The position numbers and the translations under genes were made by a program. Positions 7,503-55,744 of a stretch of DNA of 64,000 nucleotides are shown one piece after another. This stretch comes from Streptomyces sp. MUM 178J (lineage in GTDB: Bacteria; Actinomycetota; Actinomycetes; Streptomycetales; Streptomycetaceae). The stretch covers positions 248,001 through 312,000 of the forward strand of contig NZ_JADWYQ010000001.1 of assembly GCF_022414575.1 (NCBI RefSeq). Reading direction: 5' to 3'. The notes under the pieces are model-generated. The model had not been told where the DNA came from, made no database searches, and saw only the letters and a list, made by a program, of their open reading frames with translations. Every line of letters starts with the position of its first letter. The first letter of the stretch is position 1.

Positions 7503-7520
7503 CTTCCGTGCTTCCCAGGC

Positions 7521-8018
7521 TCAGGCGTCGAGGACCTGCCCCTCCCGGCGGATGACGGGCGGTTCCACCGACCAGGGGAAGTTGATCCACTCATCGGTCC
7601 GCTTCCAGACGTACTCGCAGTCCACGAGGGAGTGCGACTTCTGGTAGACGACGGCGCTGCGGACCTCGGCGACGGTGCCGAGGCAGAAGTCGTGGACCAG
7701 CTTGAGGGTCTTCCCGGTGTCCGCGACGTCGTCGGCGATCAGCACCTTCTTGTCGGAGAAGTCGATCGCGTTGGGCATCGGCGCGAGCATGACCGGCATT
7801 TCCAGGGTCGTGCCCACGCCGGTGTAGAACTCCACATTGACGAGGTGGATGTTCTTGCAGTCCAGCGCGTAGGCGAGCCCGCCCGCGACGAAGACTCCAC
7901 CGCGCGCGATCGACAGCACGATGTCGGGCTCGTATCCGTCGTCGGCGATGGTCTGCGCAAGCTCGCGGATCGCGCGCCCGAACCCCTCGTACGTCAGGTT
8001 CTCCCGTACCTCAGCCAT
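7521..8018 (-). CDS. Phosphoribosyltransferase (purine PRTase-like)
   Basis: A 165-residue type I phosphoribosyltransferase. The PRPP loop is VLIADDVADTGKTL (about residues 91-104), with an upstream VLSIARGGVFVAGGLAYAL segment. Size and motif fit the hypoxanthine/xanthine-guanine PRTase group. The substrate base cannot be told from sequence; purine salvage is the likely role. The ATG at 8018 is four bases after the dcd stop, so both form one nucleotide-metabolism unit on the minus strand. Confidence 0.88.
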   Translation of the reverse strand: MAEVRENLTYEGFGRAIRELAQTIADDGYEPDIVLSIARGGVFVAGGLAYALDCKNIHLVNVEFYTGVGTTLEMPVMLAPMPNAIDFSDKKVLIADDVADTGKTLKLVHDFCLGTVAEVRSAVVYQKSHSLVDCEYVWKRTDEWINFPWSVEPPVIRREGQVLDA

Positions 8019-8022
8019 GTGC

Positions 8023-8598
8023 TCACACCTGCGTTCGATGGAAATTCTGGAAGGAGCGCGAGGCGGTCGGCCCCCGCTGCCCCTGATAACGCGATCCGTA
8101 CCGCTCGCTCCCGTACGGCGCCTCTGCCGGAGAGCTGAGTCGGAACATGCACAGCTGCCCGATCTTCATGCCCGGCCACAGCTTGATGGGCAGTGTGGCG
8201 AGATTGGAGAGCTCGAGGGTGACGTGCCCCGAGAAGCCGGGGTCGATGAAGCCGGCGGTCGAATGGGTCACCAGCCCCAGCCGACCGAGGGAGCTCTTTC
8301 CCTCCAGCCGGCTGGCGATGTCCTCCGGCAGTGAGATGACCTCGTAGGTCGAGGCGAGCACGAACTCGCCGGGATGCAGGATGAACGCCTCGTCGCCGTC
8401 CGGCTCGACCAGCCGCGTCAGATCCGCCTGCTCGACCGCGGGGTCGATATGCGGGTAGCGGTGGTTCTCGAACACCCGGAAATAGCGGTCCAGCCGCACA
8501 TCGATGCTCGAGGGCTGCACCATGGATTCGTCGTACGGATCGATGCGCACCCGTCCGGCGTCGATCTCGGCCCGGATGTCCTTGTCTGAGAGAAGCAC
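8023..8598 (-). CDS. dcd: dCTP deaminase
   Basis: A 191-residue Dcd that converts dCTP to dUTP, the dTMP precursor. Motifs are [11 protein letters not shown] at the N-terminus, [13 protein letters not shown], and the active-site blocks [22 protein letters not shown] and HVTLELSN with its general-base Glu. The C-terminus [12 protein letters not shown] is the nucleotide-closing segment. The start is the GTG at 8596-8598, which gives the family's standard length; the frame is open further upstream but unlike Dcd. Actinobacterial relatives are sometimes bifunctional deaminase/dUTPases, which cannot be decided here. Confidence 0.96.
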
Positions 8599-8702
8599 CC
8601 CCCGAGGATACGCAGTGCGCGCGGACCCGCCGCAATCAGACTCCGCGCCGCCCCCGCACGCACCGCCCTCGGCTTCTCCTCCCGGCCTGTGCTTCCTCCG
8701 GC

Positions 8703-8876
8703 CTACCGCTTCACCGACTCCACGGGCACGGCATGCCGCAGCCGTGCACAACGCGGACACCGGATGAGCCGCCCGGGCCCGATCCTCCCGGCGCCGAGCT
8801 GCTGCATCGGGAACGAAGCGGTAGCGAAGACATGCCCCTCGGCACAGCGGACGACGGTGCGCTCCATCAAGTCCAT
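8703..8876 (-). CDS. Small Cys-rich conserved protein (57 aa)
   Basis: A 57-residue protein beginning [20 protein letters not shown] and containing [15 protein letters not shown]. The pattern C-x2-GH ... C-x2-C suggests a small zinc ribbon. The ATG at 8874-8876 follows GGGGAAGGGA with five bases of spacing. I recall similar short proteins near dcd and tRNA-Gly in other Streptomyces but cannot verify this here. No function is known to me. Confidence 0.7.
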
Positions 8877-9104
8877 CGAGTCCCTTCCCCAGCCAATGCG
8901 GACGAAAGCCACATTAGGGGATGAGTAGGGCGTCGCTCCACGCGGCACTCCGCACACCAACGCTACGCCCCAACTCCCGCCGCCTGCACCCGCATCCACC
9001 CCCTCACCGCCCGCACACAACGCAAAGACCCCGCGGCGTATAACACCGGGGGCCAGGGATGAGGTACAGTGAGCGACGATGCGGATCGATGATCGGTTCG
9101 CCAC

Positions 9105-9178
9105 GCGGGTGTAGTTTAATGGTAGAACATGAGCTTCCCAAGCTCAGAGCGCGAGTTCGATTCTCGTCACCCGCTCCA
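9105..9178 (+). tRNA. tRNA-Gly (anticodon CCC), CCA encoded
   Basis: A full cloverleaf can be drawn. The acceptor GCGGGTG pairs with CACCCGC. The D-loop is GTTTAATGGTAGAAC. The anticodon stem TGAGC/GCTCA encloses TTCCCAA (anticodon CCC), and the T arm is GCGAG-TTCGATT-CTCGT. Mature body 9105-9175, followed by encoded CCA (9176-9178). Its 3' half is the left boundary of the island. Confidence 0.97.
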
Positions 9179-9180
9179 CG
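9135..9180. repeat. attL: 46-bp direct repeat inside tRNA-Gly
   Basis: Positions 9135-9180 (anticodon loop through the 3' end plus CG) are identical to 20767-20812. This is the classical geometry of site-specific integration into a tRNA 3' end. The left copy keeps the gene intact. Confidence 0.9.
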
Positions 9181-9183
9181 AGG

Positions 9184-9210
9184 AAGGCCCTGGTCGACGA
9201 CCAGGGCCTT
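9184..9210 (+). terminator. tRNA-Gly terminator hairpin
   Basis: AAGGCCCTGGTCG and its perfect complement around one base (real loop 3-5 nt), followed by GTTTCTT. It ends the tRNA transcript. A nearly identical hairpin follows the right repeat at 20817-20841. Confidence 0.9.
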
Positions 9211-9327
9211 GTTTCTTGTCTAGACCTGCCGTGGGCCTTCGTGCCCTCCGCGCGCCCTATCTGGCGCGCCGCGTCCACCTCGTCCGGGCCGCCGACGGCT
9301 CGCGGCGCGGGACCGCGAGCATCCACG

Positions 9328-9534
9328 ACGCTCTCCGTGCAGAGCTTCTTCGCGCTGCTGCAGAAGAACGTCCTCGACCGCCGGACCTGGGCCACCCGCC
9401 AGGAGTTGCGGACCGCGATCGTGACCTGGATCGAACGCACCTACCACCGCCGCCGACGCCAAAGACGCCTGGCCCGATTAACCCCCATCGAGTTCGAGAC
9501 CATCATGACCCCACCCGCAGCACTGGCTGCATAA
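9328..9534 (+). pseudogene. IS3-family transposase OrfB, C-terminal remnant
   Basis: About 66 codons read SFFALLQKNVLDRRTWATRQ and later IVTWIERTYHRRRRQRRL, LTPIEFETIM. This is the C-terminal end of an IS3-type DDE transposase, including the region around the last catalytic Glu. The upstream catalytic domain and OrfA are gone. Sequence before residue SFF in this frame does not look like transposase. A TTA codon is present. It marks past insertion at the island's left edge. Confidence 0.8.
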
Positions 9535-9619
9535 ACCCGCTGTCACCTGATCACGCAGCAGTCCCGCCTCCGGGTAGGTGTACCGATGCGCTGGTTGCCT
9601 GCTTACGGGCTCGTCAGCT

Positions 9620-9889
9620 TTAGCGGGCGGTTCCATCTGCCAGCCTCCTGATGCGTCGGGCCTGCGCGGACAGCAGTGCGAGCTTCGCGAAGTGCGCCTT
9701 CCGCAGGGAGGCAGCCACGGCTTCGATCTGGCTCTCGGTCGCACCAGGGTGAAGCTCTCGTGCCTGGACCAGAAATCGAGATTCGCGGGCTGCTCGGGCC
9801 GGCGCCGTCCGAGCAGATCGATCGACAGTATTTGCCCAGCTCACATGGGCAGCGACACGGCTCCGGAGCGTCCGTTCGGTAGGGTCCAC
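9620..9889 (-). CDS. Conserved hypothetical protein (89 aa)
   Basis: An 89-residue protein beginning at the GTG at 9887-9889, five bases after GGGAGG. It reads MDPTERTLRSRVAAHVSWAN, then TAPARAARESRF and a C-terminal KAHFAKLALLSAQARRIRR. The Ala/Arg-rich helical layout resembles a Streptomyces hypothetical family common in accessory regions (from memory, unverified). A longer frame starting at 9949 has an unlikely Cys/Trp-rich leader. Function unknown. Confidence 0.6.
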   Translation of the reverse strand: MDPTERTLRSRVAAHVSWANTVDRSARTAPARAARESRFLVQARELHPGATESQIEAVAASLRKAHFAKLALLSAQARRIRRLADGTAR

Positions 9890-10025
9890 CACAGCCTCCC
9901 AGGGCAGACAGCAACATCGCTCCGCATGCCACCACCCATTCACCTTCACGTGCCTGGAAAGCCAGGCAATCCCCTCATCCGAGTGAATAGAAGATGGTCG
10001 GCGTGCCCGGCCTCAAACAGGAAAT

Positions 10026-10970
10026 TCAGCCCTCCTGTCTCTCCGGTGTGTGGAGATCCCGTGCGGCGTAGTAGGCGTGGAGGGCGGCTTCGCTGCCGGA
10101 GCCGAGGGCGGTCATGACGCGCTGGTAGCGGGCGGAACGCAGGTCGCCGGCGATGACGACGCGGGGGTGCTGGGCGGCGGGTGGGCAGTAGCCGGTCGTG
10201 TCGCGGGCGAGGTCGCCGGGCGGGGTGGTGGGGGCGTTGCCGATGCTGAGGAAGGCGGCGTCCGCCATGACACTGTGCCGTTCGCCGCTTCTGTCGACGG
10301 CTTCTGCCATCGTCGTCGGCCCTTGCGGCGGGTGCAGGGTCACGTGCTCGACCGCGAGGAGCGTGACGCGTGGGTCCTCTCGGATCTCGTCGATCTTGTA
10401 GTCGTCGCCCGGTGGGTACGCCACGAGCAGGCCGGTCTCCGTCGTCGGGTGGGCACGCAGGAACGTGCCGATGGGCCGGTCGCCGCCCAGGACGAGGAGG
10501 GTGCGGCCTTCGGCGTCGGCCGCTTCGGCCTTCCACAGCGGCGGCAAGGTGAGGTCGGGCGGGGCGGTGATCCAGGGGACGTCGCGGGGCTGGAGCGGAC
10601 CGACGCCGGTGGCGACGATCGCGTACGGCGCGGACAGGCGGGTGCCAGTGTCCAGGGTGACCGTGACCTGGTCGTGCTCGGCGCGGAGGGCCGTGGCGCT
10701 GCGGCCCAGTTCCAGGCGGCACAGGTCCGTGGCCTTCAGCTCTGCGGTGATGGCGTCGGCCAGTTCCGGGCCGCTGGTGTAGCCGCCCAGCACGTTGTTC
10801 AGCGCCGGGATCCGGTAGAGGTTGCGGCACAGCGCGTCCGGCTCGACCAGGACCGAGCGCATGCCCACGCTCGCCGCCATCCGCGCCGCGGCGCAGCCGG
10901 CCGGGCCTCCGCCGATGACGATCAGGTCGGTGTCGTACGCGCCGGACGATCCCGTGGATGTGGAGGCCAT
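10026..10970 (-). CDS. FAD-dependent oxidoreductase, thioredoxin-reductase-like without CxxC
   Basis: 314 residues. The N-terminal FAD dinucleotide motif is LIVIGGGPAGCAAARMA (residues 16-32). A second Rossmann region begins TLLVLGGDRPIGTFLRA, AIVATG occurs mid-protein, and the C-terminal FAD motif is VVIAGDLRSARYQRVMTALG followed by GSEAALHAY. This order is that of thioredoxin reductases. The redox CxxC is absent, so it cannot reduce thioredoxin in the usual way; dithiol-free members often act on small molecules or quinones. The stop lies 4 bp from the isochorismatase gene, likely one operon with it. Confidence 0.85.
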   Translation of the reverse strand: MASTSTGSSGAYDTDLIVIGGGPAGCAAARMAASVGMRSVLVEPDALCRNLYRIPALNNVLGGYTSGPELADAITAELKATDLCRLELGRSATALRAEHDQVTVTLDTGTRLSAPYAIVATGVGPLQPRDVPWITAPPDLTLPPLWKAEAADAEGRTLLVLGGDRPIGTFLRAHPTTETGLLVAYPPGDDYKIDEIREDPRVTLLAVEHVTLHPPQGPTTMAEAVDRSGERHSVMADAAFLSIGNAPTTPPGDLARDTTGYCPPAAQHPRVVIAGDLRSARYQRVMTALGSGSEAALHAYYAARDLHTPERQEG

Positions 10971-10974
10971 GGGG

Positions 10975-11544
10975 CTATTCCAGCACCGTCATCCCGTCGC
11001 GCGCCGAGAGTTCCTGGATCACATGCCCCATCGTCACGAGCTGCCCTTCACCAATCAGGCGGCGGGCGACGACCAAACCGGCGTCATGAACGTCCGGCCC
11101 GGCGTCGCTCGCACACGCGTCGGTGACGATCCAGGGGGCGAATCCCTGCTCGAAGGCATCGGCAGCGGACTTCAGCACGCAGCTCTCGGTCGCCACGCCG
11201 CAGAACACCAAGTCCGTCCAACCAGCTTCACGGGCCAGCGCGTTCGCCTGCGTGGTGAGGAAGGTGTACCCGGTCTTGTCGATGACCACGCGGGCGCGAG
11301 AAGCGGCGTCGGCGAGCTCCGGGACGATCTCCGTCTCGGGAGGCTCCTGGAGGCGGCGCCAGTGGAAGAACCTCTCGTAGGGGCTGTCCGGGTAGTTGAA
11401 GTAGCGGGTGAACACCACTGGGCGGCCGACGGCGGTCCAGGTCGCAACCAGGTCGGCGACTGCGGGCACGGCGTGGTGGCTGTGGTGGTTGATGAAGCCG
11501 TTCTGCATGTCGACCACGACCAGCGCCGCCTTGCCGATGTCCAT
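10975..11544 (-). CDS. Isochorismatase-family cysteine hydrolase
   Basis: A 189-residue alpha/beta hydrolase of the nicotinamidase/isochorismatase fold. The catalytic triad is visible: D12 in VVVDMQNGF, K90 in VVIDKTGYTF and C122 in GVATESCVL, with the usual cis-peptide VAT before the Cys. Substrates in this family include nicotinamide, ureidoacrylate, N-carbamoylsarcosine and isochorismate; nothing here picks one. Pairs with the flavoprotein gene downstream and follows the XRE regulator gene on the same strand. Confidence 0.9.
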   Translation of the reverse strand: MDIGKAALVVVDMQNGFINHHSHHAVPAVADLVATWTAVGRPVVFTRYFNYPDSPYERFFHWRRLQEPPETEIVPELADAASRARVVIDKTGYTFLTTQANALAREAGWTDLVFCGVATESCVLKSAADAFEQGFAPWIVTDACASDAGPDVHDAGLVVARRLIGEGQLVTMGHVIQELSARDGMTVLE

Positions 11545-11568
11545 GCCTTGTCTCTCCTGCCCGTGTTG

Positions 11569-12720
11569 TCAGCCGACGCCTTCGCGTAGGGCGTCCTGCG
11601 CGGCGCGGAGCCGTTCGGCCAGGCCGCTGGTCTTCATGATGGCTTCTCGCATGAGCACGTGTTGCGCGGTCTCCTGGGCCCGGGCCGTCGTCAGCCGGGA
11701 GTACGCGGCGCGCAGGAAGCGCCAGCCGTAGCGTTCGGGCATGGAGGGGTCCTGGCCGTCCTCGATCATCTGCTGGACCTGGCGGGTGAAGCACCACAGG
11801 GCCTGGACCGTCAGTTCGCAGGCGACCAGCTCGTCGACCGTGAGGCTGCGTTCGCGCGCGATCGAGGCGTACGCGACGCCGGACCATCCCGCGTAGCCGG
11901 TGGAGACTCCGCGTACGCCGAAGGACACGATGTCCGGGTGGTCGAAGCCCGTGGCGAGCAGCAACGCCTCCACCGAGCCGTCCAGCGGCGCGGCACCGCC
12001 AGGTGCACCTCGGTCGACCAGCACGGACGGTGTGGACAGCAGGCGCAGGGCGGTGTCGTACTCGCTTCCGGTCCATGGGCTGGAGGTGAGCCAGTAGAGG
12101 GAGAGGACGTATTCGGGGTTCGGCGCGCGGGCGGGATCCGCGTCGAGTAACTCCCTGATCCGCTCCCTCGCCCAGGGCAGGTCGGAGGCGTAGGAGCGGT
12201 AGCGCCACACGGCGAGTTCGGTGAGGCAGGCGGGTTCGTGGGGCTGGACGATGTGGAAGACGGCGACTCCACACGCGAACACGTGGAGGGTGCAGTTCGG
12301 CGTCTCCGGGTGTGCCACGCGGGCGGCCGAGGACTCCAGCCACTCCTCCGCGGAGCCCGTGGTGACCTTGCTGCTGGTGGTCATGTGGGCGCGTAGTCGA
12401 CGGGCACGCTCGACGCCGATGAAGACGGGCAGGAACTTGTGCGAGTCGACGCCTATCCCGGCGGCGACCGGCAGGGCTTCACCGTGTACGCCAAGGGCTT
12501 CAGCGAAGCGTGCCTTGACTTCGTCCGATGCCCGCGCGAGGGCGGTGTCGAGTACGGCCTGGGACTCCGTGCTGGGGTGACAAGTCGCTCCGCCCGACTC
12601 CCAGTTCGACACCGCCCGATCGCTCATGCCGAGGTGTGCGGCGAAGCGGCGGAGACTCATCCGCATGGCTTCGCGGAGCAGCCGGGACTCGCGGCCGGAC
12701 CATCGCTGCACCGTGACCAC
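11569..12720 (-). CDS. XRE-family regulator with long C-terminal domain
   Basis: 383 residues from the GTG at 12718-12720 (AGGGGG seven bases upstream); a further 26 codons are open upstream but have no ribosome site. The N-terminal HTH is LLREAMRMSLRRFAAHLGMS followed by DRAVSNWESGG (about residues 10-40). The remaining ~330 residues are helical, with no domain I can name. It is divergent from the 12941-20121 operon and upstream of the isochorismatase gene, so it probably controls both arms of the island. Confidence 0.8.
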   Translation of the reverse strand: MVTVQRWSGRESRLLREAMRMSLRRFAAHLGMSDRAVSNWESGGATCHPSTESQAVLDTALARASDEVKARFAEALGVHGEALPVAAGIGVDSHKFLPVFIGVERARRLRAHMTTSSKVTTGSAEEWLESSAARVAHPETPNCTLHVFACGVAVFHIVQPHEPACLTELAVWRYRSYASDLPWARERIRELLDADPARAPNPEYVLSLYWLTSSPWTGSEYDTALRLLSTPSVLVDRGAPGGAAPLDGSVEALLLATGFDHPDIVSFGVRGVSTGYAGWSGVAYASIARERSLTVDELVACELTVQALWCFTRQVQQMIEDGQDPSMPERYGWRFLRAAYSRLTTARAQETAQHVLMREAIMKTSGLAERLRAAQDALREGVG

Positions 12721-12940
12721 TGCCGTACCCCCTGTCCGCTGTCCGTAGAGCACGGAAGCACACAGCGTAACGAGGCATGTTCGGCAGCGGTACGGCATGG
12801 GTGCAGCACTTGTGCGTCACACCCGGCCCGCGATGTGCACCATGCTGGGTCCGCCAGCCGGGAAGCGGCCCTTACCAGAAGCCCGGCTGGTGGCGAATGG
12901 GCCGCTCTCACGGGCACCACGACGAGAGGGAGCAATCCGC

Positions 12941-13408
12941 ATGACCGACATCGTCAAGCGCAATGCCCGCGCGATCCTCCTCGACGGCGACGAACTGGTC
13001 CTGATCAAGCGCACCAAGCCGGGCCGGGAGCCCTACTGGGTGACCGTCGGCGGCGGGGTCGAGGACGACGACGCGACCATCGAGGCGGCGCTGCACCGGG
13101 AGGTGTTCGAGGAGCTCGGCGGCAAGCTGGCCCGGGCCGAACTCGTCCACCTGATCACCGACGAGCTGGAGGGCGGCATCGGTGTCCAGCACATCTTCGC
13201 CGCGCGCCTGGAGTCCATGGACCTGAGCGTCCGTACGGGCACGGAGTTCGCCAAGCCGGAGCGAGGCGGGTACGAGGTGGTCCGGGTGCCCTTCACCGCC
13301 GAGGCCGTTTGCGATCTGAACCTGATGCCGCCGGAGCTGGCCGAGTTCATCACCGCCAACACCGATGCCATCGCCTCGGTCCTCGGCAGCCCGATCCGCG
13401 AGGCGTGA
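12941..13408 (+). CDS. Nudix-domain protein
   Basis: 155 residues, first gene of the island's large operon. The Nudix box runs from G39: GGVEDDDATIEAALHREVFE then ELGG. The REVFEELGG half is intact, but the upstream Glu of G-x5-E-x7-REUxEExGU is Ala. Nudix enzymes cleave nucleoside diphosphates linked to another group. The ATG at 12941 follows AGAGGGAG with eight bases of spacing. The next gene starts six bases after the stop. Confidence 0.9.
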   Translation: MTDIVKRNARAILLDGDELVLIKRTKPGREPYWVTVGGGVEDDDATIEAALHREVFEELGGKLARAELVHLITDELEGGIGVQHIFAARLESMDLSVRTGTEFAKPERGGYEVVRVPFTAEAVCDLNLMPPELAEFITANTDAIASVLGSPIREA

Positions 13409-13414
13409 CCGGCG

Positions 13415-14068
13415 ATGCGGGTCCCGGACTTCGTCAGCCTCAACGGACCTGACAACGCCGGCAAGACAACCCACCTGCGACTGCTCGCCGCAGCAAGCGG
13501 CCTCCAGCTTCTCGGGTCGGTCCACGAGCACGATCCTGAGCCGTGGGCACGAGTAGCAGCCGGCGACTACGCCCGGTGGTGGTTCGAGACGTCCACAACG
13601 GTGGAGCTGACCGAGATGCTGCTGGCCGGACACACCAAGCGGGGCGCCACTCGTGAGCCGGACCGCACGGGGCTGCTCGACCGGGGTCTGCCCATGCTCC
13701 TCGCGGTGGCCGCCGCGACCTGCGCGGTCAAGGACGGGCTCACCGTACGAGAGGCCGTGGCCACCGTGGCCGGTATCGCCGGTTCACGGTCGGGACCGCC
13801 CGAGACGTCGGTTCTCCTGTTGCCGTCCCTCGACGCCGAGCGCAGCTACGCGATCACCAGCGCCCGCGAGGGCCGCCCCTGGACCGGGGTCTACCCCGTC
13901 TACCAGAAGACCCTGCACGCGGTCCTGCTCCACCAGGCCGACCACGGCACGTACACCGCGGTCGTGGACTGCGAGAACCGATCCGTGGACGAGGTCCACG
14001 CCGACGTACGGCACCACATCGCTGCCTACCTTCCGGCCCCACCACTCAAGGACGGGAGCCCACGATGA
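13415..14068 (+). CDS. Thymidylate-kinase-like P-loop protein
   Basis: 217 residues with Walker A GPDNAGKTT (residues 11-19) directly after a first beta strand, as in dNMP kinases (GxDxAGKTT). LLDRGLPMLLAV resembles the DR-Y/G substrate motif, and SAREGRPWTGVYPVYQKTL could be the lid and adenine region. The substrate is probably a nucleotide or nucleoside, but the TMK-specific DRY sequence is altered, so ordinary dTMP kinase function is doubtful. Ends in an ATGA overlap with the next gene. Confidence 0.75.
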   Translation: MRVPDFVSLNGPDNAGKTTHLRLLAAASGLQLLGSVHEHDPEPWARVAAGDYARWWFETSTTVELTEMLLAGHTKRGATREPDRTGLLDRGLPMLLAVAAATCAVKDGLTVREAVATVAGIAGSRSGPPETSVLLLPSLDAERSYAITSAREGRPWTGVYPVYQKTLHAVLLHQADHGTYTAVVDCENRSVDEVHADVRHHIAAYLPAPPLKDGSPR

Positions 14069-15864
14069 CCCGGACCTTCCCACCTCTGGTCCTGCCTCCC
14101 GGGCTGGCCGGTGCCACAGCCACGCTCCAGGACAAGGACCGCCGACGCCTGGACGACACCATCACCCGGCTCCACACCGTCAACGGACGCCTGTGGGACA
14201 CCGAGGACCGAGTCCGTGGCGCGTTACTGACCGCCGCCCAGGTCGCCGACTGCAAGCGCGAGATCGACCAGCTCAACGCCGAACGCAACGCGCTCACCGA
14301 ACGCGCCGACGAGATCCTCGGAACGTTCGCGGACGCGGGCCGCGCCGATGCCCCGCTGCACACGGAGACCCTCGCCTCCGTCGTGGACCGACTGTCGGTG
14401 CTCACCTTGCGGATCTGGCACAGCGAACGCGCCTCGACACGGGACGAGCTGGCCCGGCGCCGCATCCCCGCACTGCACCGGCAGCGCGAGGAGCTGTGCG
14501 CCGCCCTGGACACCCTTGTCGCCGATGCCCTCGCCGGTAGGCGGCGCCTGCCCGTACCGGCCCGTTTCAAGCTCTACGGCCGTGACGACGCCGTGCTCGC
14601 GGAGATCGAGCCGAGCCGTCATCTGCGCCGGGTCGTCGCCTTCGGCGGACTGAGCGAGTGCGGCAAGAGCACCAGCGCCGCGTTCGTACGGCGTACGTGC
14701 GGTGCCCAGCGGCTCAAGATCGGCTTCCTGCTACGGCAGGCGGCGCACCGGGAGGGGCTCGCAGACCCGTATGCGCTGTCGGCCCGGCGGCAGGCTGAGC
14801 TGCTGCTCGGTGAACTGAACCGCTTCGCGGACGCCCACGTCGACACGGGGCTGTTCACCATCGAGTCCGTCCATGACGACGCCTCGATCGCCGAACTCAA
14901 GCAGCTGATGGGCGACACGCTCCAGATCGTCTACCTGGACGCCTCCTTCGCCGTACGGGTCGAGCGGTCCGGGATGCCCGCCCAGGCGGTAGCCGCCAAG
15001 GACGAGATCAAGATGAGCCGCGGTGCGCACCAGGTCGCCGCCCTCGCCGACCACGTGATCGACAACTCCGGCAGCATCGCCGCCCTCCGCGCCCGGCTCC
15101 GGCGCATCGCCGCCCCGCCCGCCCTTGCGAGGCTGCGCGTCACCACCCCCTACGGGCTGGGCCTGCCCGCCGAGGTCGCCTCCGCGACAGCCGACTTCAC
15201 CGACGCGGTACGGGCGTACGAGCCCGGCGTACGACTCGCAGCCCTGACCGGCAGCCCGGGCGAGGGCACCTGGATTCCGGGGTGGTCCGACCTCGACCTG
15301 CTCGTGATCGCCGAACACGAGGCCCACGGCCGACTCCACGAGGCCCTGGAGCGGTATCGCACCACCCTCGACGGAGCCGCCTCCCTCGGCCCGACCCTCG
15401 TCACCCCGGGTGAGGTCACTGCCCGGCGCCTCACTCCGCGTCTCGCCTTCGCCCTGCACCAGCTCCAGCAGGGCCGGCCCGTCCTGTACGCCGCACCTGG
15501 CACCGAACTGCCCACCATCACGCGGGACGACCTGAACCTGGCCGCCGTCCGAGAGCTGCCCCAAGTCATCCTCACCACGCGCCGCCTGCGCGCCGACACC
15601 GGCCCGCGCACGCTGCGTCAGTTGTACAAGCACCTCGTCCTGGCCTGCCGCCTCCTTCTCCGCGAGCACAACCGGTGGGAGACCGGCCCCGACCAGATCC
15701 TCGCCGCAGCTTCCCGGATGCCGGGGCTGCCTGCCTTCTCCCTGCCGTCCTTGGCCGAGATCGCCGCCGCCTGGCGCGACGGCGCCAGCGAGCAGGTGCT
15801 CAAGCAGGTCACGGCGGCCATCGACCAGCTTCTGGCCTGGTACGCCGCCGAGCTCGCGGCCTGA
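14065..15864 (+). CDS. DUF4254 - P-loop kinase - nucleotidyltransferase fusion
   Basis: 599 residues in three parts. Residues about 20-155 look like DUF4254 (LHTVNGRLWDTEDRVR at 36-51, then CKREIDQLNAERNALTERAD and RIWHSERAS). Residues about 185-345 are a P-loop kinase with Walker A GLSECGKST (about 195-203), similar to dephospho-CoA or deoxynucleoside kinases. Residues about 365-599 carry a minimal nucleotidyltransferase: GSPGEGTWIPGWSDLDLLVI (396 onward) with the GS...DxD metal site. Known DUF4254 genes often neighbour GT9 glycosyltransferases, as here (recollection). The combination implies phosphorylation then NMP transfer on a shared substrate; that is inference. No break in the frame. 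Confidence 0.8.
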   Translation: MTRTFPPLVLPPGLAGATATLQDKDRRRLDDTITRLHTVNGRLWDTEDRVRGALLTAAQVADCKREIDQLNAERNALTERADEILGTFADAGRADAPLHTETLASVVDRLSVLTLRIWHSERASTRDELARRRIPALHRQREELCAALDTLVADALAGRRRLPVPARFKLYGRDDAVLAEIEPSRHLRRVVAFGGLSECGKSTSAAFVRRTCGAQRLKIGFLLRQAAHREGLADPYALSARRQAELLLGELNRFADAHVDTGLFTIESVHDDASIAELKQLMGDTLQIVYLDASFAVRVERSGMPAQAVAAKDEIKMSRGAHQVAALADHVIDNSGSIAALRARLRRIAAPPALARLRVTTPYGLGLPAEVASATADFTDAVRAYEPGVRLAALTGSPGEGTWIPGWSDLDLLVIAEHEAHGRLHEALERYRTTLDGAASLGPTLVTPGEVTARRLTPRLAFALHQLQQGRPVLYAAPGTELPTITRDDLNLAAVRELPQVILTTRRLRADTGPRTLRQLYKHLVLACRLLLREHNRWETGPDQILAAASRMPGLPAFSLPSLAEIAAAWRDGASEQVLKQVTAAIDQLLAWYAAELAA

Positions 15865-15923
15865 CCACTGGACGCCCTCGTCCTTCCTTCTCCTTCCTTC
15901 CGCACACCCGCAGGAGCTTCGTC

Positions 15924-16499
15924 ATGCCCGAAACCCTCGCCGTGCCGCCGTTCTCCGCCCGCATCGTCGAACGCCTGAGCGTCGGCGCGACGAGCCGCCG
16001 CGAGCGCGTCATCCACTCCCTGGACGGGCTCGAAGCCCCGGTCCACCCGAACGCGCTGGCCACCACCGGCACCCGCCTGTGGCAGTGCCTCCAGGACGAG
16101 TTGCCCGACGGGCTCGGCAGCGTGGACTTCCTTCTCGGCCTGGACGCCGGTGGCATCCTCCCGACCGTGTCGCTCGCGGGTGCCGCACAACTGCCGTACA
16201 AGATTGCCTGGAAGCTGCACCTCCCGCTCGACGGCGCGGTCCGCTTCAGCGAGCCCCACGCGATGCGTACCGACGTCTTCGCGTACGGCATCGCACCGGG
16301 GCAGCGGATCATCCTGGTGGACGACGAGATCACCACCGGCCGGACGCTCGCCGACCTCACCCGCCGACTCCGCGAGGCCGGCGCCGTCCCGCTGGCGGCG
16401 GCCTGCCTGGTGGAGGACACCACGCGCGGCGCCCGTGAACTGCTCACCGCCCTCGACCTCCCGCTGGTCTCCCTCACCACCATCGAGGGAGAGGCATGA
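15924..16499 (+). CDS. Phosphoribosyltransferase-fold protein
   Basis: 191 residues. The PRPP-binding motif IILVDDEITTGRTL is at 129-142, and LLGLDAGGILPTVSLAG (70-86) is the conserved upstream strand-loop. It resembles orotate/adenine PRTase folds but is too divergent to assign a base. ATG 15924 follows GGAG with eight bases of spacing; the 59-bp gap after the fusion gene is the largest in the operon. The stop overlaps the next start as ATGA. Confidence 0.85.
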   Translation: MPETLAVPPFSARIVERLSVGATSRRERVIHSLDGLEAPVHPNALATTGTRLWQCLQDELPDGLGSVDFLLGLDAGGILPTVSLAGAAQLPYKIAWKLHLPLDGAVRFSEPHAMRTDVFAYGIAPGQRIILVDDEITTGRTLADLTRRLREAGAVPLAAACLVEDTTRGARELLTALDLPLVSLTTIEGEA

Positions 16500-17653
16500 G
16501 CACCGTCGCCTCGGCAGGGGTCCGCTTCCACTCCGGCTCGCAAATCATCCCCGCCGGGGCCGTACACACCACGCCGCTGGGCTACGACCGCGCCGACATC
16601 CCCGTCGGCGCCCCGCTCCCGGCCCCCGCGTCCGCCGAACTGGTCGACCGCCTGAGCACGTGCGACGAGATCGAAGTCGCCTTCGATGGCAGGCTCGGGG
16701 ACACCCTCCTCGCCCTGGCAGCGGTTCGCGCCGTCACGGACTGGCTCCGCCTGCGCTCCGCGAGGGTCATCGTCCGCGCCATGGGCCCCTACGCAGGGCT
16801 CATCGCCCGCGCCGGACTGATCACACAGGAGCCGGACGCCACATCCACCGGCCGGCGAGCCGTGATCGGCGACCGGATCGCGGTCGAGGCCCGCGCCCCC
16901 GGGGCGGCGGTGAGCCTGATCTGCGACCCGGCCGCCCCACCCTGCTGGGCGAGCGACGGCCGATCCCATCCGGACCTGCCCACCCGCTACTACCTGGCGC
17001 TGGAACGCCGCCTCGGTATCCGCCTTCCCGGCACCGCACCCTTCGCCCCCGTTCTCACCACCTGGCAGAGCGGGCTGGTCGAGCAGTTACGTTCCGCAGG
17101 CTGGCTGAACGACCTGACCATCGCCGCGGTCACCGCCACGAGCTGGCCGGAGCGCAAGGACTACACCGCCCAGCGCTACATCGAACTCGCGGAGCGCATC
17201 GCCGAGGCCCAGCAGACCAGGGTCCAGCTCCTGCTGATCGGCGGCCGCACTACGGGCGACGTCCACATCGCCGCAGAGAGCGCCCGACGCCGTGTTCAGG
17301 TCCTCCGCCTCGACGGTGTGGCGGCCGACCACCTCGCCGACCTGTTCCCGCACGTCCACCTGGTCGTCGGCAACGACACCGGCCTCACCCACCTCGCCGC
17401 CATGACCCGCAGCGGCAACGGCGGCGGCCCTCCGGTCATCGGCCTGTACGCGCGGCACAGCCACAGCAAGTGGCGCACCGGCCTGCCCCACCACCACGCC
17501 GCCGCCACCCGCCTGTCCGACCGCATGCACCAGGGCGACCTGTGCCCCGTACGCGATGCCATCGCCCCGGACACGGACGTCCACATGGACGCCATCCCGC
17601 CCGCCGCGCTGGCCCAGCTCTGCCTCGACATCCTCAGCGGAGTGAAGGCATGA
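16496..17653 (+). CDS. GT9-like glycosyltransferase (heptosyltransferase superfamily)
   Basis: 385 residues. The N-terminal acceptor-domain loop reads FDGRLGDTLLALAAVRAV (63-80), and the donor-site motif is VVGNDTGLTHLAA (290-302), the family hallmark (GxDTGxxHLA). GT9 enzymes transfer heptose from ADP-heptose in Gram-negative LPS; a Gram-positive host has no LPS, so donor and acceptor must differ, or the acceptor is a small molecule. Coupled on both sides by ATGA overlaps. Confidence 0.88.
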   Translation: MSTVASAGVRFHSGSQIIPAGAVHTTPLGYDRADIPVGAPLPAPASAELVDRLSTCDEIEVAFDGRLGDTLLALAAVRAVTDWLRLRSARVIVRAMGPYAGLIARAGLITQEPDATSTGRRAVIGDRIAVEARAPGAAVSLICDPAAPPCWASDGRSHPDLPTRYYLALERRLGIRLPGTAPFAPVLTTWQSGLVEQLRSAGWLNDLTIAAVTATSWPERKDYTAQRYIELAERIAEAQQTRVQLLLIGGRTTGDVHIAAESARRRVQVLRLDGVAADHLADLFPHVHLVVGNDTGLTHLAAMTRSGNGGGPPVIGLYARHSHSKWRTGLPHHHAAATRLSDRMHQGDLCPVRDAIAPDTDVHMDAIPPAALAQLCLDILSGVKA

Positions 17654-18786
17654 ACGGACAGCCCCTACTGAAGATCGGCCCGCTGCGTCGCTTCACCCGC
17701 AACCTGCTCTGCCCCGTCGACCTCCTCGGCCGCCCCGTGCTCATGAAGTACACCCGCGACCCGGTGGAGGCCCGCGAGGAGGTCCGTGGCCGCGCCCGCC
17801 TTGCCCGGCACTACCGCGTACCCGCCCTCCACGCTCGCCTGCACGTCCCCGGTGGCTACCTCATCGCGTACGAACGGCTCCCGGGCGGCACGGACCACGG
17901 ACTCCTACTCGACCTGCTCAACGCGCCCGAACCGACCGCCGAACTCCATTCCTACCTGCGCCAACTCACCACCACATACCGCGACGTGATCCTCTCCACG
18001 GCATGGCCCACGGCACCTGCCCACGTCGTCCGCAAGCTGTACTGGGACCGCGCGGCACCCGGCGGCCGACTTGACGCGTACTACGCCGGGGCGGACTTCG
18101 CTGTCGCCGACGGCCTCATCGACGTCCCGGTCTCCCGCCTCGCCACGTACACCTTGCACATCAACAACCGCCGCCACCATCTGGACTGGACCGCGACCCT
18201 CCGCTGGCTCCGCGCCCACTTCGCCAGGCCGGAACCCGTCTGGGCGGCTCTCACCCAGGGCGACCCCACCGACGTCAACCTCGCCCACCCGCTGGCCTGG
18301 TTCGACTACGACACCGCCGGCATGAACAGCATCCCGGGCGAGTTCGCGAACTTCCTCTGGTACACCTCCGCGCTCGGCGGCTGGCTCGTCCCCACCTACA
18401 ACGCCGCCGCCTTCGCCGACCACCCCGCCACCTTCGACCACATCGCGGCCAACACACCCGACGTCCGGCGCGCGGAAGTCGACGACACCACCAGCACGAT
18501 CCACATCGACTACACCCCGCGCCTCTCGGCGCCCCGCCGAACCGCCGTATCCACGTACTGGCACCAGCTCGTACAGCCGGTCGCCCAACGGCTCTGGCCG
18601 GACGCGGACCTCGCGAACCTGCTCCGGCCCTACCTGGCCATGCGCGTCCTCGGCATCTACAACCTCTCTGACCTGACCCCGAAGGACCGACTCCTCCTCC
18701 TCGCCCGGCTCGCCGAGGCCATGAGCCCGACCTTCGACCCCGCCACCTACTTCGCCCCGCAGGAGTCGCCATGCCCGACACCCTGA
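17650..18786 (+). CDS. Aminoglycoside-phosphotransferase-fold kinase
   Basis: 378 residues from the ATG at 17650, which overlaps the upstream stop. The catalytic loop is QGDPTDVNL (203-211; H of HGD replaced by Q) and the metal-binding DxD-like motif is FDYDTAG (218-224). VLMKYTRD near residue 31 may carry the ATP-binding Lys. It fits the APH/choline-kinase superfamily, which phosphorylates hydroxyls of small molecules. The aligned Asp residues are present, so it is probably active. The long C-terminal half is family-specific. Confidence 0.75.
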   Translation: MNGQPLLKIGPLRRFTRNLLCPVDLLGRPVLMKYTRDPVEAREEVRGRARLARHYRVPALHARLHVPGGYLIAYERLPGGTDHGLLLDLLNAPEPTAELHSYLRQLTTTYRDVILSTAWPTAPAHVVRKLYWDRAAPGGRLDAYYAGADFAVADGLIDVPVSRLATYTLHINNRRHHLDWTATLRWLRAHFARPEPVWAALTQGDPTDVNLAHPLAWFDYDTAGMNSIPGEFANFLWYTSALGGWLVPTYNAAAFADHPATFDHIAANTPDVRRAEVDDTTSTIHIDYTPRLSAPRRTAVSTYWHQLVQPVAQRLWPDADLANLLRPYLAMRVLGIYNLSDLTPKDRLLLLARLAEAMSPTFDPATYFAPQESPCPTP

Positions 18787-19532
18787 ACGGCCGCACCGCC
18801 CTGGTCACCGGAGCCACCGGCGGCATCGGCTCCGCCATCGCCCGACGCCTCGCAGAGAACGGCACCGCAGTCGCCCTGGCCCACCTCGGTGACCACGAGT
18901 CCGCCACCACACTCGCCGAGCACATCACCAGTACAGGCGGCCACGCCATCGCGCTGGAAGCCGACCTCCGAGAACACAACGCCGTACGAGCCCTCTGCCA
19001 CCAGGCCCACGAGGAGCTCGGCGCGATCGACATCCTGGTGAGCAACGCGGGCGCCTACCCCCGGATCCCATGGGCGGAGACGACCCCAGACCGCTGGGAC
19101 AACGTGCTCTCCACCAACCTGACCAGCCACTACCTCCTCGCCCGTGAGCTGACGCCGACCATGGTTTCCAGGAACTGGGGACGGGTGATCACGATCGGTT
19201 CCGTCCTCGCCACCGCAGGCCGCCACGACCTCACCGGCTACATCAGCGCCAAGGCCGGCCTCGAAGGACTCACCCGCGCCCTCGCCCGGGAGCTCGGCCC
19301 CAGCGGCATCACAGCCAACTGCGTCGCCCCCGGCTCCATCCGCGTACCTGCCGAGGACACGGTCGTCGACGACCCAGCCGCGATGACCCCCCGTCAGCTC
19401 GCCCGCCAGTGCGTCCAGCACCGAGGCCGCCCGGACGACGTCGCCGCGGCCGTCGCCTTCCTCGCCGCCGATGACGCCGGCTTCATCACCGGCCAGACCC
19501 TGCGCGTCGACGGAGGCTGGATCCTTGGCTGA
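18771..19532 (+). CDS. Short-chain dehydrogenase/reductase
   Basis: 253 residues, classical SDR. Cofactor motif TGATGGIG (13-20), NAG at 92-94, catalytic S144, Y157 and K161 (YISAK), and the C-terminal family end GQTLRVDGGWILG. NAD versus NADP is not clear from the sequence. Closest in look to 3-oxoacyl-ACP reductases and sugar/polyol dehydrogenases. It overlaps the kinase gene by 16 bp and the phosphatase gene by 8 bp. Confidence 0.92.
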   Translation: MPDTLNGRTALVTGATGGIGSAIARRLAENGTAVALAHLGDHESATTLAEHITSTGGHAIALEADLREHNAVRALCHQAHEELGAIDILVSNAGAYPRIPWAETTPDRWDNVLSTNLTSHYLLARELTPTMVSRNWGRVITIGSVLATAGRHDLTGYISAKAGLEGLTRALARELGPSGITANCVAPGSIRVPAEDTVVDDPAAMTPRQLARQCVQHRGRPDDVAAAVAFLAADDAGFITGQTLRVDGGWILG

Positions 19533-20121
19533 CATCTGGCTCATGCGCCACGGCGCCTACGAAGGCCACCGCCCCGGCTACCACGCGCCACACGAAGCCG
19601 CCCTCACCTTGGAAGGCCGCGACCAGGTACGCCGCTCCCTGCCCCTCCCCGACGGCATCACCGCCATCGTCACCAGCCCGATCCCCCGCGCCCGCCAGAC
19701 GGCCATGCTCATCGCACACCTCACGAACCTGCCCATCGTCGCCACCTCCGGCTTCCTCGCCGAATGGCGCGCTCCCAGCATCGTCCTCGGCCGCTCCGCC
19801 GAGACCTACCCGCCGGCCTACCGCGCCTGGCGCTCCTGCCGTCTCGCCAAGCCCTCCCTCCGCTGCGAAGACGGCGAAAGTCTCACCGACCTCCACACCC
19901 GCGCCCGCCACTGCGCCGCCTTCCTCCACCACACCGCTGGGCGCCACGGCCCCCTCCTGGCCGTCTCCCACACCCTTCTCCTCGGCGTCCTCACCCGCCT
20001 CCCAGAAGGCCCCACTGCCTTCACCACTGCAGCGAGCAACCCATGGCACTTCGCCGAACGCCGCCGGTTCACCCCCCAGCAGTCAGCGCCGACTTCACCG
20101 CCTTGCAGCTCCACAGCCTGA
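19525..20121 (+). CDS. Histidine phosphatase (phosphoglycerate-mutase superfamily)
   Basis: 198 residues. The phosphohistidine motif is LMRHG (6-10), followed by SPIPRARQTA, DGESLTDLHTRARHCAAF and the second catalytic His in AVSHTLLLG. Such enzymes dephosphorylate small phosphorylated metabolites. The start is taken as TTG 19525, eight bases after GGAGG and inside the SDR gene; an ATG at 19543 would cut into the RHG strand. Confidence 0.88.
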   Translation: MADIWLMRHGAYEGHRPGYHAPHEAALTLEGRDQVRRSLPLPDGITAIVTSPIPRARQTAMLIAHLTNLPIVATSGFLAEWRAPSIVLGRSAETYPPAYRAWRSCRLAKPSLRCEDGESLTDLHTRARHCAAFLHHTAGRHGPLLAVSHTLLLGVLTRLPEGPTAFTTAASNPWHFAERRRFTPQQSAPTSPPCSSTA

Positions 20122-20483
20122 GCGGCCCGCAAGCCATGCCTCCCGGACCGCCGTGGGCGTACTGGGTCCAGGCTCTCGCCCACGGCCCAAATGGCCGCAT
20201 TCACAACTTGGGAGAGGCCGTCAGACCTACGGCGCGCCTCGCGCTTCGCTGGCTGCGGGCTCGTGCCATCGATATCGCAGGCCAGCTCGACCCGTCGGCG
20301 AGAAATCGTCTCCGTGCTTGGTCGGACAGTACCGCCGCTCAAGACCACGCACTCGGGATCTTGTCCCAAGGCGATGCATACACGTACGTAGCCGTCGAAG
20401 ACGGCACTCGATACGTCCTACTGGCCAGCGCTCTACCCACCTCGTCGTCAATCACCGCTGGCCTCCGTTACCGAACGGGGTAG
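20043..20483 (+). CDS. Conserved hypothetical protein (up to 146 aa)
   Basis: Reads SADFTALQLHSLSGPQAMPP, GRIHNLGEAVRPTARLALRW, then AQDHALGILSQGDAYTYVAVEDGTRYVL. It looks protein-like throughout, with a helical N-terminal half and a strand-rich end. The ATG at 20043 overlaps the phosphatase gene by 79 bp; ATG 20136 would avoid that but drop the SADFTALQ segment, which looks conserved. No domain recognised. Last member of the plus-strand group. Confidence 0.55.
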   Translation: MALRRTPPVHPPAVSADFTALQLHSLSGPQAMPPGPPWAYWVQALAHGPNGRIHNLGEAVRPTARLALRWLRARAIDIAGQLDPSARNRLRAWSDSTAAQDHALGILSQGDAYTYVAVEDGTRYVLLASALPTSSSITAGLRYRTG

Positions 20484-20592
20484 GGAGGAGCTCAAGCATT
20501 CTCAGAGCGCGCCGCCGGTAGATCAGCGCAACAGCGCACAGCGCCACCGCCGCCACACCTGGCCCCATGGCGCCGTCAGGCAGGCACGCCAC
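20452..20592 (-). CDS. Possible small membrane protein (46 aa)
   Basis: From a GTG at 20590-20592, seven bases after AGGAAGGG: MACLPDGAMGPGVAAVALCA followed by VALIYRRRALRMLELLP. One membrane helix and a basic stop-transfer sequence are visible. Its 3' end overlaps the convergent hypothetical gene by 32 bp. The good ribosome site and clean topology support it; its size and lack of known relatives weaken it. The rest of the stretch to the right repeat holds nothing I recognise. Confidence 0.35.
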   Translation of the reverse strand: MACLPDGAMGPGVAAVALCAVALIYRRRALRMLELLPTPFGNGGQR

Positions 20593-20766
20593 TGAAACAC
20601 CCTTCCTGCCCCTCGGAAGCCAGCCTGTCGGCCATCCGTGCCCCATCCGTGCCCTCCAAGGCGGTGAACCACGGTCAACAGGAGCACATGCATGCACCTC
20701 CGCAGAGTACTCGCCGTGCGCGTTTTGCCTGGTCAGGTCGTCTATCGATCTAGCAGCCGCCCTTGA

Positions 20767-20812
20767 TTCCCAAGCTCAGAGCGCGAGTTCGATTCTCGTC
20801 ACCCGCTCCACG
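20767..20812. repeat. attR: orphan copy of tRNA-Gly 3' half
   Basis: 46 bp identical to 9135-9180, without the tRNA 5' half upstream. It is followed by a second tRNA-type terminator hairpin, so this end is probably the original chromosomal 3' end of the tRNA locus. Confidence 0.9.
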
Positions 20813-55364: not shown

Positions 55365-55394
55365 GCCAGGCCCTGGCACACCCCGCCCCCCTCT

Positions 55395-55560
55395 GAGATG
55401 CTTCCTGACGACAACGCGACGGCGGACGAGGAAGCCGGTGAGATTCCGGCACGGTACCGCCACTGTGTAGGGGGAGCGACTCCGCCATGGCCACCGCCCG
55501 CTGAAGGGTGGGAAGGCCGGGGAAGCGTCGATCCCGAGTCAGGAGACTCACGCCGTCGCA
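55395..55560 (+). ncRNA. Cobalamin riboswitch
   Basis: Conserved blocks in order: GAGGAAGCCGGTGAGATTCC (55428 on), GGCACGGTACCGCCACTGTG, and the B12 box GAGTCAGGAGACTCACGCC (55536-55554). It lies 185 bp before the importer gene. A later hairpin (GCCGCT-gctg-AGCGGC, 55663-55678) may be the expression platform. Expected to switch the operon off when cobalamin is plentiful. Confidence 0.92.
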
Positions 55561-55744
55561 CCTCGACGTTCCGGGGCGGATCTCCCCGAGAGAGGACGGT
55601 GGCACCCGTGTGCCCGCGTATCTGTGACAGCTCCTCCGTGCAGCCTGCCGTGCCGACCCCGGGCCGCTGCTGAGCGGCTCCCGGCACCGGACGTCTTCTT
55701 CCCCACGCCGTCAGGCGTTTCCCTTTCGCACGCCAGGAGCCATC

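Follow-up and report, generated by a model that had tools for sequence, protein, structure and literature searches.

A 64,000-nt window of Streptomyces sp. MUM 178J (contig NZ_JADWYQ010000001.1; coordinates without a locus prefix are positions in this window) contains a biosynthetic cassette that is mobile, inherited as a unit and built on a recurring core; we found no earlier characterisation of it. Eight tightly spaced enzyme open reading frames (ORFs) occupy 12941-20121 on the forward strand and encode a Nudix hydrolase, a TMK-like kinase, a DUF4254-kinase-nucleotidyltransferase fusion, a phosphoribosyltransferase (PRTase), a GT9 glycosyltransferase, an APH-like protein, a short-chain dehydrogenase/reductase (SDR) and a histidine phosphatase. 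We consider it somewhat better than an even chance (roughly 0.55) that this cassette makes a phosphorylated, nucleotide-activated small metabolite, which is the best explanation of the evidence as a whole. The full form seen in the window is called type A here, relatives lacking GT9, DUF4254, PRTase and phosphatase are called core-only, and the kinase-nucleotidyltransferase is abbreviated kinase-NT.

Co-inheritance of the genes was assessed in 33 loci, namely 30 named loci and L043-L045. All eight genes are near full-length without internal stops in 26 of them. The seven incomplete loci either lie at a contig end (L006, L011), have one or more genes incomplete or disrupted (L020, L021, L023 and L028, the last with a single stop each in the TMK and oxidoreductase genes) or are decaying (L030). 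Pairwise protein distances of all 11 genes of the enlarged unit described below correlate with r of 0.84-0.98, and catalytic motifs are kept across the aligned cassette copies. Among 392 Streptomyces genomes, in each of which only the best few candidates were scored, the type A kinase-NT was found in 13 and GT9 (at least 50% identity) in the identical 13, the two genes lying on one contig and 0.8-1 kb apart; DUF4254 was present in the 12 of these that were checked (G894 excluded). Two extra GT9 matches represent a cassette remnant (G652/L109) and a solitary GT9-DUF4254 pair outside any cassette (G763/L108, L108:9211-11257). DUF4254 occurs in 10 of 293 genomes of the order. A joint pathway, as put forward in the original prediction, is therefore well supported, because the genes are not independently scattered, the condition that the prediction itself had named as refuting it, and two of the proteins are fused in relatives.

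Those relatives reveal a core. A kinase-NT relative found in genome G050 was used as query and gave some match in 53 of the 392 genomes, many of them short and weak, and at least 59% identity in 15. Eleven core-only loci were inspected, ten from the same sample and one from G050 (L059, L092-L099, L104 and L105), and all have the constant order TMK-like, kinase-NT without DUF4254, APH-like, SDR and Nudix, with the SDR only partial in L105. GT9, PRTase and phosphatase were unmatched by tblastn in all 11, and one divergent helix-turn-helix (HTH) gene is common to seven. L106 and L107 have an alternative order, SDR-TMK-kinase-NT-APH-Nudix, with a more distant SDR (33-34%) and, by eye, a SARP-regulator-like gene nearby. 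TMK-kinase-NT stands alone in three genomes, beside a panD-like gene and between tuf and the rpsJ operon (names assigned by eye; L100:8081-10276, L101:8905-10740, L102:8298-10298). Across these three types, all 16 core loci encode the TMK-like protein and kinase-NT in a single open frame, which is a fusion link between both proteins, and the core comprises five enzymes in four genes. Type A differs in that the two are separate genes and the kinase-NT bears DUF4254 instead.

The presence of DUF4254 tracks that of GT9, as both are present in type A and both absent from the core-only sets. DUF4254 also adjoins GT9 in four of six other contexts (L041, L042, L047 and L108), the L042 GT9 lying slightly below the Pfam cut-off, and in the remaining two, L040 and a Legionella hit (L048), no GT9 was visible beside it. 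Since the core recurs without them and DUF4254 tracks GT9 elsewhere, GT9/DUF4254 and PRTase/phosphatase look like add-on modules. The linear route first proposed, which ran through phosphorylation, activation, transfer, modification and dephosphorylation and required GT9, PRTase and phosphatase, is rejected as stated, as these three are absent from the 11 core-only loci; transfer and dephosphorylation therefore look optional. One of the DUF4254-GT9 pairs (L041:15490-17307) lies in a cluster resembling nonribosomal peptide synthetase clusters, with transketolase-like halves (by eye). A recurrent set of a P-loop/CPT-like kinase, an NAD-binding protein, a HAD protein and an HTH protein was seen by eye near a cassette or DUF4254 (L028:17642-20358, L040:10618-14055), and an ARMT1-like damage-control phosphatase, a second Nudix and a DAO-type oxidoreductase lie upstream of the cassette in two loci (L001:3155-5760, L023:3141-5745).

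The unit extends beyond the eight genes. The interval originally delimited, 12941-20121, omits three divergent genes at 10026-12798, which encode an HTH regulator, an isochorismatase-fold hydrolase (iso) and an FAD-dependent oxidoreductase (fad) and adjoin the operon in 28 of the 30 named loci (Streptomyces, Actinacidiphila), including L002, L021 and L023, where the HTH match is only partial. All three were unmatched in L025 and the decaying L030, as they were beside the distant copies as a group (L025, L043, L060, L061 and L110), and iso and fad were unmatched at core-only loci. No transporter or membrane-protein family was matched in the 11-gene unit with Pfam and NCBIfam, which leaves the secreted product that had been suggested unsupported.

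The island itself was recovered as predicted, with a tRNA-Gly(CCC) and a 46-nt exact direct repeat, and measures 11.6 kb from repeat to repeat (Table 1). No integrase or transfer gene was recognised by eye among the island ORFs (9179-20766), part of which were also covered by Pfam scans. Just within the island, at 9241-9534, there is a fragment that by eye resembles the C-terminal end of an IS3-type transposase, and an unassigned reading frame of about 100 codons (20153-20483) lies 3' of the operon, before the island ends. Elsewhere in the window, a cobalamin riboswitch was identified at 55389-55564 (Rfam, 78.6 bits).

Table 1. Features of the tRNA-Gly island and its 11-gene unit in the window
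Feature	Position	Strand	Basis
tRNA-Gly(CCC), integration site	9105-9178	+	ARAGORN, Rfam
Left att-like repeat from the tRNA-Gly 3' part; 46-nt exact match to 20767-20812	9135-9180	+	Repeat comparison
FAD-dependent oxidoreductase (fad), thioredoxin-reductase-like	10026-10970	-	NCBIfam
Isochorismatase-fold cysteine hydrolase (iso)	10975-11544	-	PF00857 2.8e-32
Divergent XRE-type HTH regulator, large conserved C-terminal part	11569-12798	-	PF01381 at cut-off
Nudix hydrolase, REVFEELG box	12941-13408	+	PF00293 9e-14; core enzyme
TMK-like P-loop kinase (GPDNAGKTT, DRG)	13415-14068	+	Weak AAA_28/dTMP kinase matches, motifs
Fusion DUF4254-P-loop kinase-nucleotidyltransferase	14065-15864	+	PF14063 2.4e-34, PF01909 4.1e-4; core enzyme minus DUF4254
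Type I PRTase, PRPP loop VDDEITTG	15924-16499	+	PF00156 1.8e-7, PF15609 7.2e-7
GT9 (heptosyltransferase-family) glycosyltransferase	16496-17653	+	PF01075 6.8e-13
Probable APH/choline-kinase-like kinase (K33, E44, QGDPTDVN, FDYD)	17650-18786	+	Invariant positions, AF2 model
Classical SDR, FabG-like	18771-19532	+	PF13561 2.4e-58; NF009466 above cut-off
Histidine phosphatase branch 1	19525-20121 (TTG start; alternative ATG 19543)	+	PF00300 1.3e-17
Right att-like repeat, 93% over 89 nt vs left copy	20767-20812	+	Repeat comparison

The coordinates agree with the compact arrangement described earlier, with eight genes on one strand and six of seven junctions overlapping or at most 6 bp apart. The Nudix and TMK-like genes are separated by 6 bp, the TMK-like gene overlaps the fusion gene by 4 bp, and a 59-bp gap precedes the PRTase gene; PRTase and GT9, and GT9 and APH-like, each overlap by 4 bp, APH-like and SDR by 16 bp, and SDR and phosphatase by 8 bp. 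The domain set held in part: Nudix, DUF4254, PRTase, GT9, SDR and histidine phosphatase were found, as was a marginal nucleotidyltransferase, whereas the TMK-like and APH-like proteins have weaker support than had been implied. In the fusion, DUF4254 spans residues 32-164, the P-loop kinase about 186-345 and the nucleotidyltransferase about 381-600, the last with only a marginal PF01909 match (21.1 bits, cut-off 21). Over residues 370-463, this part is nearest, though only weakly (E 0.026), to the CD-NTase CdnD, a similarity that was not counted. The PRTase has the phosphoribosyl pyrophosphate (PRPP)-binding loop and PF00156 domain of type I enzymes, and its closest solved chains are OPRT and APRT. 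The GT9 protein carries DTGLTHLAA, which we take to be the motif of that family, and its best match among PDB sequences was only E 0.026. For the TMK-like protein, the best family matches were AAA_28 (Pfam, E 0.049) and dTMP kinase (E 0.023), with only E 0.042 against PDB sequences.

The APH-like protein did not match any Pfam (including PF01636), NCBIfam or PADLOC model. K33, E44, D205, N210 and D219 are invariant in 30 aligned copies, D205 and N210 lying within QGDPTDVN, and we take these residues to be the conserved Lys/Glu pair, the catalytic Asp-Asn and the metal-binding Asp. Its AlphaFold model (pLDDT 76.9, below 50 for residues 196-225) has a strand and helix order like that of a kinase N-lobe. 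By our own interpretation of motifs and fold order, the protein is probably an APH/choline-kinase-like kinase.

Other copies of the cassette also lie on tRNA islands, and in those bounded by att repeats it is the main cargo. In L026, a tRNA-Ser island is bracketed by a 135-nt repeat (93%), and apart from the cassette its picked ORFs (at least 100 aa) comprise a single type IIG restriction-modification enzyme. An exact tRNA-Ser repeat of 73 nt flanks the L010 island, in which the cassette is accompanied by one ORF that by eye resembles a transposase and by one unassigned ORF. The tRNA-Ser site lies beside a DNA polymerase III gamma/tau-like gene in both (L010:5872-19360, L026:5204-21516). Six more loci with an ARAGORN tRNA call gave no convincing repeat by the equivalent test, and the tRNA-Leu called in L018 falls within the oxidoreductase gene and was discounted. 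L092 carries a core-only cassette and an integrase at tRNA-Gly(CCC), and the DNA beside this tRNA is 82-83% identical to window positions 7514-9226; both cassette types therefore use the tRNA-Gly(CCC) site. Plasmids and phages received no support as carriers of full copies, as the fusion protein matched seven records of a plasmid collection, all partial and none full-length, and had no match in a phage collection.

The timing of expression may be reflected in codon use. Of 32 copies, 25 have a TTA codon in the TMK or fusion gene, at about 12 different codon positions, compared with 7 of 109 and 9 of 95 single control ORFs, from which about 13-19% would be expected by chance for a gene pair. 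This suggests late-growth bldA control; as the cassette copies are related, the excess is suggestive and does not amount to a test.

From gene families and motifs we infer a putative set of reactions, in a putative order, as follows. Kinases phosphorylate, nucleotidyltransferases transfer a nucleoside monophosphate and SDRs alter a hydroxyl or keto group, and the five-enzyme core would phosphorylate, oxidise or reduce, and nucleotidyl-activate a small scaffold drawn from primary metabolism. Nudix enzymes cleave nucleoside diphosphate (NDP)-linked species, and the one here may hydrolyse an NDP intermediate or by-product. The gene content of the core-only loci suggests that the scaffold comes from the core and is decorated by the add-ons. 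Ribosylation by a PRTase and then a phosphatase is known from butirosin, and in type A the two would probably add ribose from PRPP and then remove the 5'-phosphate. GT9 enzymes transfer a sugar from an NDP donor; the one in type A would do so together with DUF4254, its presumed partner, which is fused here to the activating enzyme. Given that no match to a membrane-protein family was obtained, the product probably either stays in the cytosol, where it is formed and acts, or exits via a host route. The divergent HTH protein would probably switch the operon, and the TTA codons found in most copies would place it under late-growth control. Its likely purpose would be antagonism against competitors or phages.

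Several observations weigh against this proposal. No scaffold-forming enzyme, exporter or self-resistance gene was recognised, unlike in usual antibiotic clusters. Family matches are lacking for the APH-like protein and weak for the TMK-like protein, and profile comparisons of the former with two APH proteins and with solved structures returned nothing. No GmhA-, HldE- or GmhB-type match was found in the 11 proteins with Pfam and/or NCBIfam, so that the ADP-heptose genes expected for a canonical GT9 are absent. Among close relatives only, the correlation of distances with the rest falls to 0.27-0.59 for the phosphatase and 0.60-0.81 for the PRTase, and TTA codons occur in just 3 of 11 copies of the core-only type. 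Literature searches, through which alone the comparison with known clusters was made, returned no described pathway combining this gene set.

Several copies of the cassette have defence genes nearby, which raises the possibility of anti-phage chemistry, in which infection would trigger synthesis of a modified nucleotide or a glyco-nucleotide, either to poison replication of the phage or to signal shutdown. This idea is compatible with the metabolite proposal and is considered less likely than not. Of 140 ORFs of 230-999 aa that flank the cassette, 109 were scanned with PADLOC; these represent 27 of the 30 loci, L012, L025, L030 and eight single ORFs being left out. The 109 ORFs matched 100 families at 1e-10, compared with 10 families when 109 of 152 ORFs in random segments were scanned (15 of 16 segments) and 8 families for 95 ORFs from relaxase surroundings (10 of 11 sites), although redundant models inflate such counts. 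Neighbours resolved singly were GajA and GajB (L003), pPIWI-RE with DinG (L013), LmuB (L014), type II enzymes (L008, L019) and the candidate PDC-M30 (L004, L023), and type IIG enzymes above 1000 aa, a size class outside the control scans, occur in L001 and L026. The att-bounded L026 island, the lack of a matched transporter and the sporadic occurrence (13 of 392 genomes) point the same way. On the other hand, 12 of 26 flanking proteins scanned singly had no PADLOC match. Per locus, a defence match at E 1e-50 was found in 7 of 27 versus 1 of 25 (p 0.032, one-sided; this cut-off was chosen after seeing the data), L004 reaching it only via a gene 97% identical to an L023 gene and the lone control match being DrmD (9.6e-57) near a relaxase; for named systems only, the count is 5 of 27 (p 0.11, threshold likewise chosen afterwards). 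The cassette proteins had no strong match to PADLOC models in the 9 of 11 that were scanned (iso and fad omitted; best 9.4e-6, Nudix to PDC-S07), the TTA codons fit timed metabolism, and no defence gene was recognised by eye in the window's own island. Support for the phage-defence molecule entertained originally is circumstantial and comes from neighbouring genes. An actinobacterial defence study (PMC10482375) notes that in Streptomyces the distribution of defence systems parallels that of biosynthetic clusters, and on that account the neighbourhood cannot separate defence from other antagonism. Chemical phage defence is serious but unproven, as several copies neighbour anti-phage systems and the L026 island consists of the cassette and a restriction enzyme. 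The 64 ORFs flanking core-only loci match 81 PADLOC families unresolved by locus and were not used as evidence; among them is an HTH gene that adjoins the core in L096, and those matches that are to kinases and reverse transcriptases may be generic.

A more specific and more speculative version is that the core makes a modified nucleotide metabolite and represents a module for antagonism or against viruses that has not been described before, that type A elaborates on it with ribosyl and glycosyl add-ons that alter the product, and that both spread on small tRNA islands, partly together with restriction-modification and other defence systems; the module would then be a metabolite-based counterpart of viperin-type nucleotide defence. 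Self-protection or detoxification, with the APH-like protein, nucleotidyltransferase, SDR, Nudix and phosphatase modifying an incoming antibiotic or nucleoside analogue, would also suit the sporadic distribution, and APH- and ANT-type folds are well known from antibiotic-modifying enzymes; the number of enzymes, including PRTase and GT9, is far above what this would need and the full set is conserved, which makes it improbable. Slightly less probable still is salvage or an alternative dinucleotide cofactor pathway following the logic of NAD or CoA synthesis. The nicotinamidase-like iso hydrolase, PRTase, nucleotidyltransferase, kinases and Nudix fit that logic, iso and fad are co-inherited in most Streptomyces copies, and in three genomes a TMK-kinase-NT relative stands beside a gene that by eye resembles panD; against this, GT9 does not fit, type I PRTases are unlike nicotinate PRTase, and iso and fad are unmatched in L025, L043, L060, L061, L110 and the core-only loci. 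Islands do collect unrelated cargo, but a chance gathering without a joint pathway was rejected and is given almost no credence, as order and co-divergence are kept across genera, 26 of 33 sets are intact with correlated distances, and the core and the gene fusion recur.

A compact, testable cassette for which no product was found is thus present in a much-studied antibiotic genus, and its occurrence as core alone, as core plus add-ons, and with fused or split enzymes is a natural experiment for decoding its chemistry. If the link to defence is true, it would be a multi-enzyme chemical defence travelling with restriction systems. With respect to mobility, the att repeats at a tRNA that mark integrative and conjugative elements, including those of actinomycetes, were found in the window. 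Cis-mobilizable (CIME)-like elements are att-flanked and lack an integrase, and the cargo of the window and of L026 likewise lies between tRNA-derived repeats without a recognised recombinase; the core-only cassette of L092, at the equivalent tRNA-Gly site, differs in having an integrase.

The tubercidin, acarbose and butirosin clusters share with the cassette the logic of PRTase plus phosphatase, or of kinase, nucleotidyltransferase, SDR and glycosyltransferase, whereas the cassette has no recognised scaffold-forming enzyme or exporter, and to our knowledge its gene set matches no nameable nucleoside or pseudo-sugar antibiotic cluster. A cluster on Bradyrhizobium japonicum plasmid p1S06B (L046), uncharacterised as far as we know, is similar in encoding a homologous kinase (32%), a nucleotidyltransferase, a PRTase, an APH-like protein (by eye), a phosphatase of the inositol-monophosphatase family and an oxidoreductase, along with PRPP synthetase and ribulose-phosphate epimerase. 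It differs in its phosphoenolpyruvate-mutase-family and aconitase-like genes and in having no annotated GT9; the kinase alone matched the cassette by tblastn, and the cluster is an independent assembly of similar functions, its product possibly a phosphonate or ribosyl metabolite. In GT9/DUF4254 pairs such as the Burkholderia GT9-DUF4254-GT9 arrangement (L047) and the Streptomyces pair in L108, a DUF4254 gene likewise adjoins GT9, with no core enzymes seen alongside except an SDR (L041, L047) and an APH protein (L041). The cassette differs from these pairs in that DUF4254 is fused to a kinase-nucleotidyltransferase within an eight-gene operon. DUF4254 gains a concrete likely partner in GT9.

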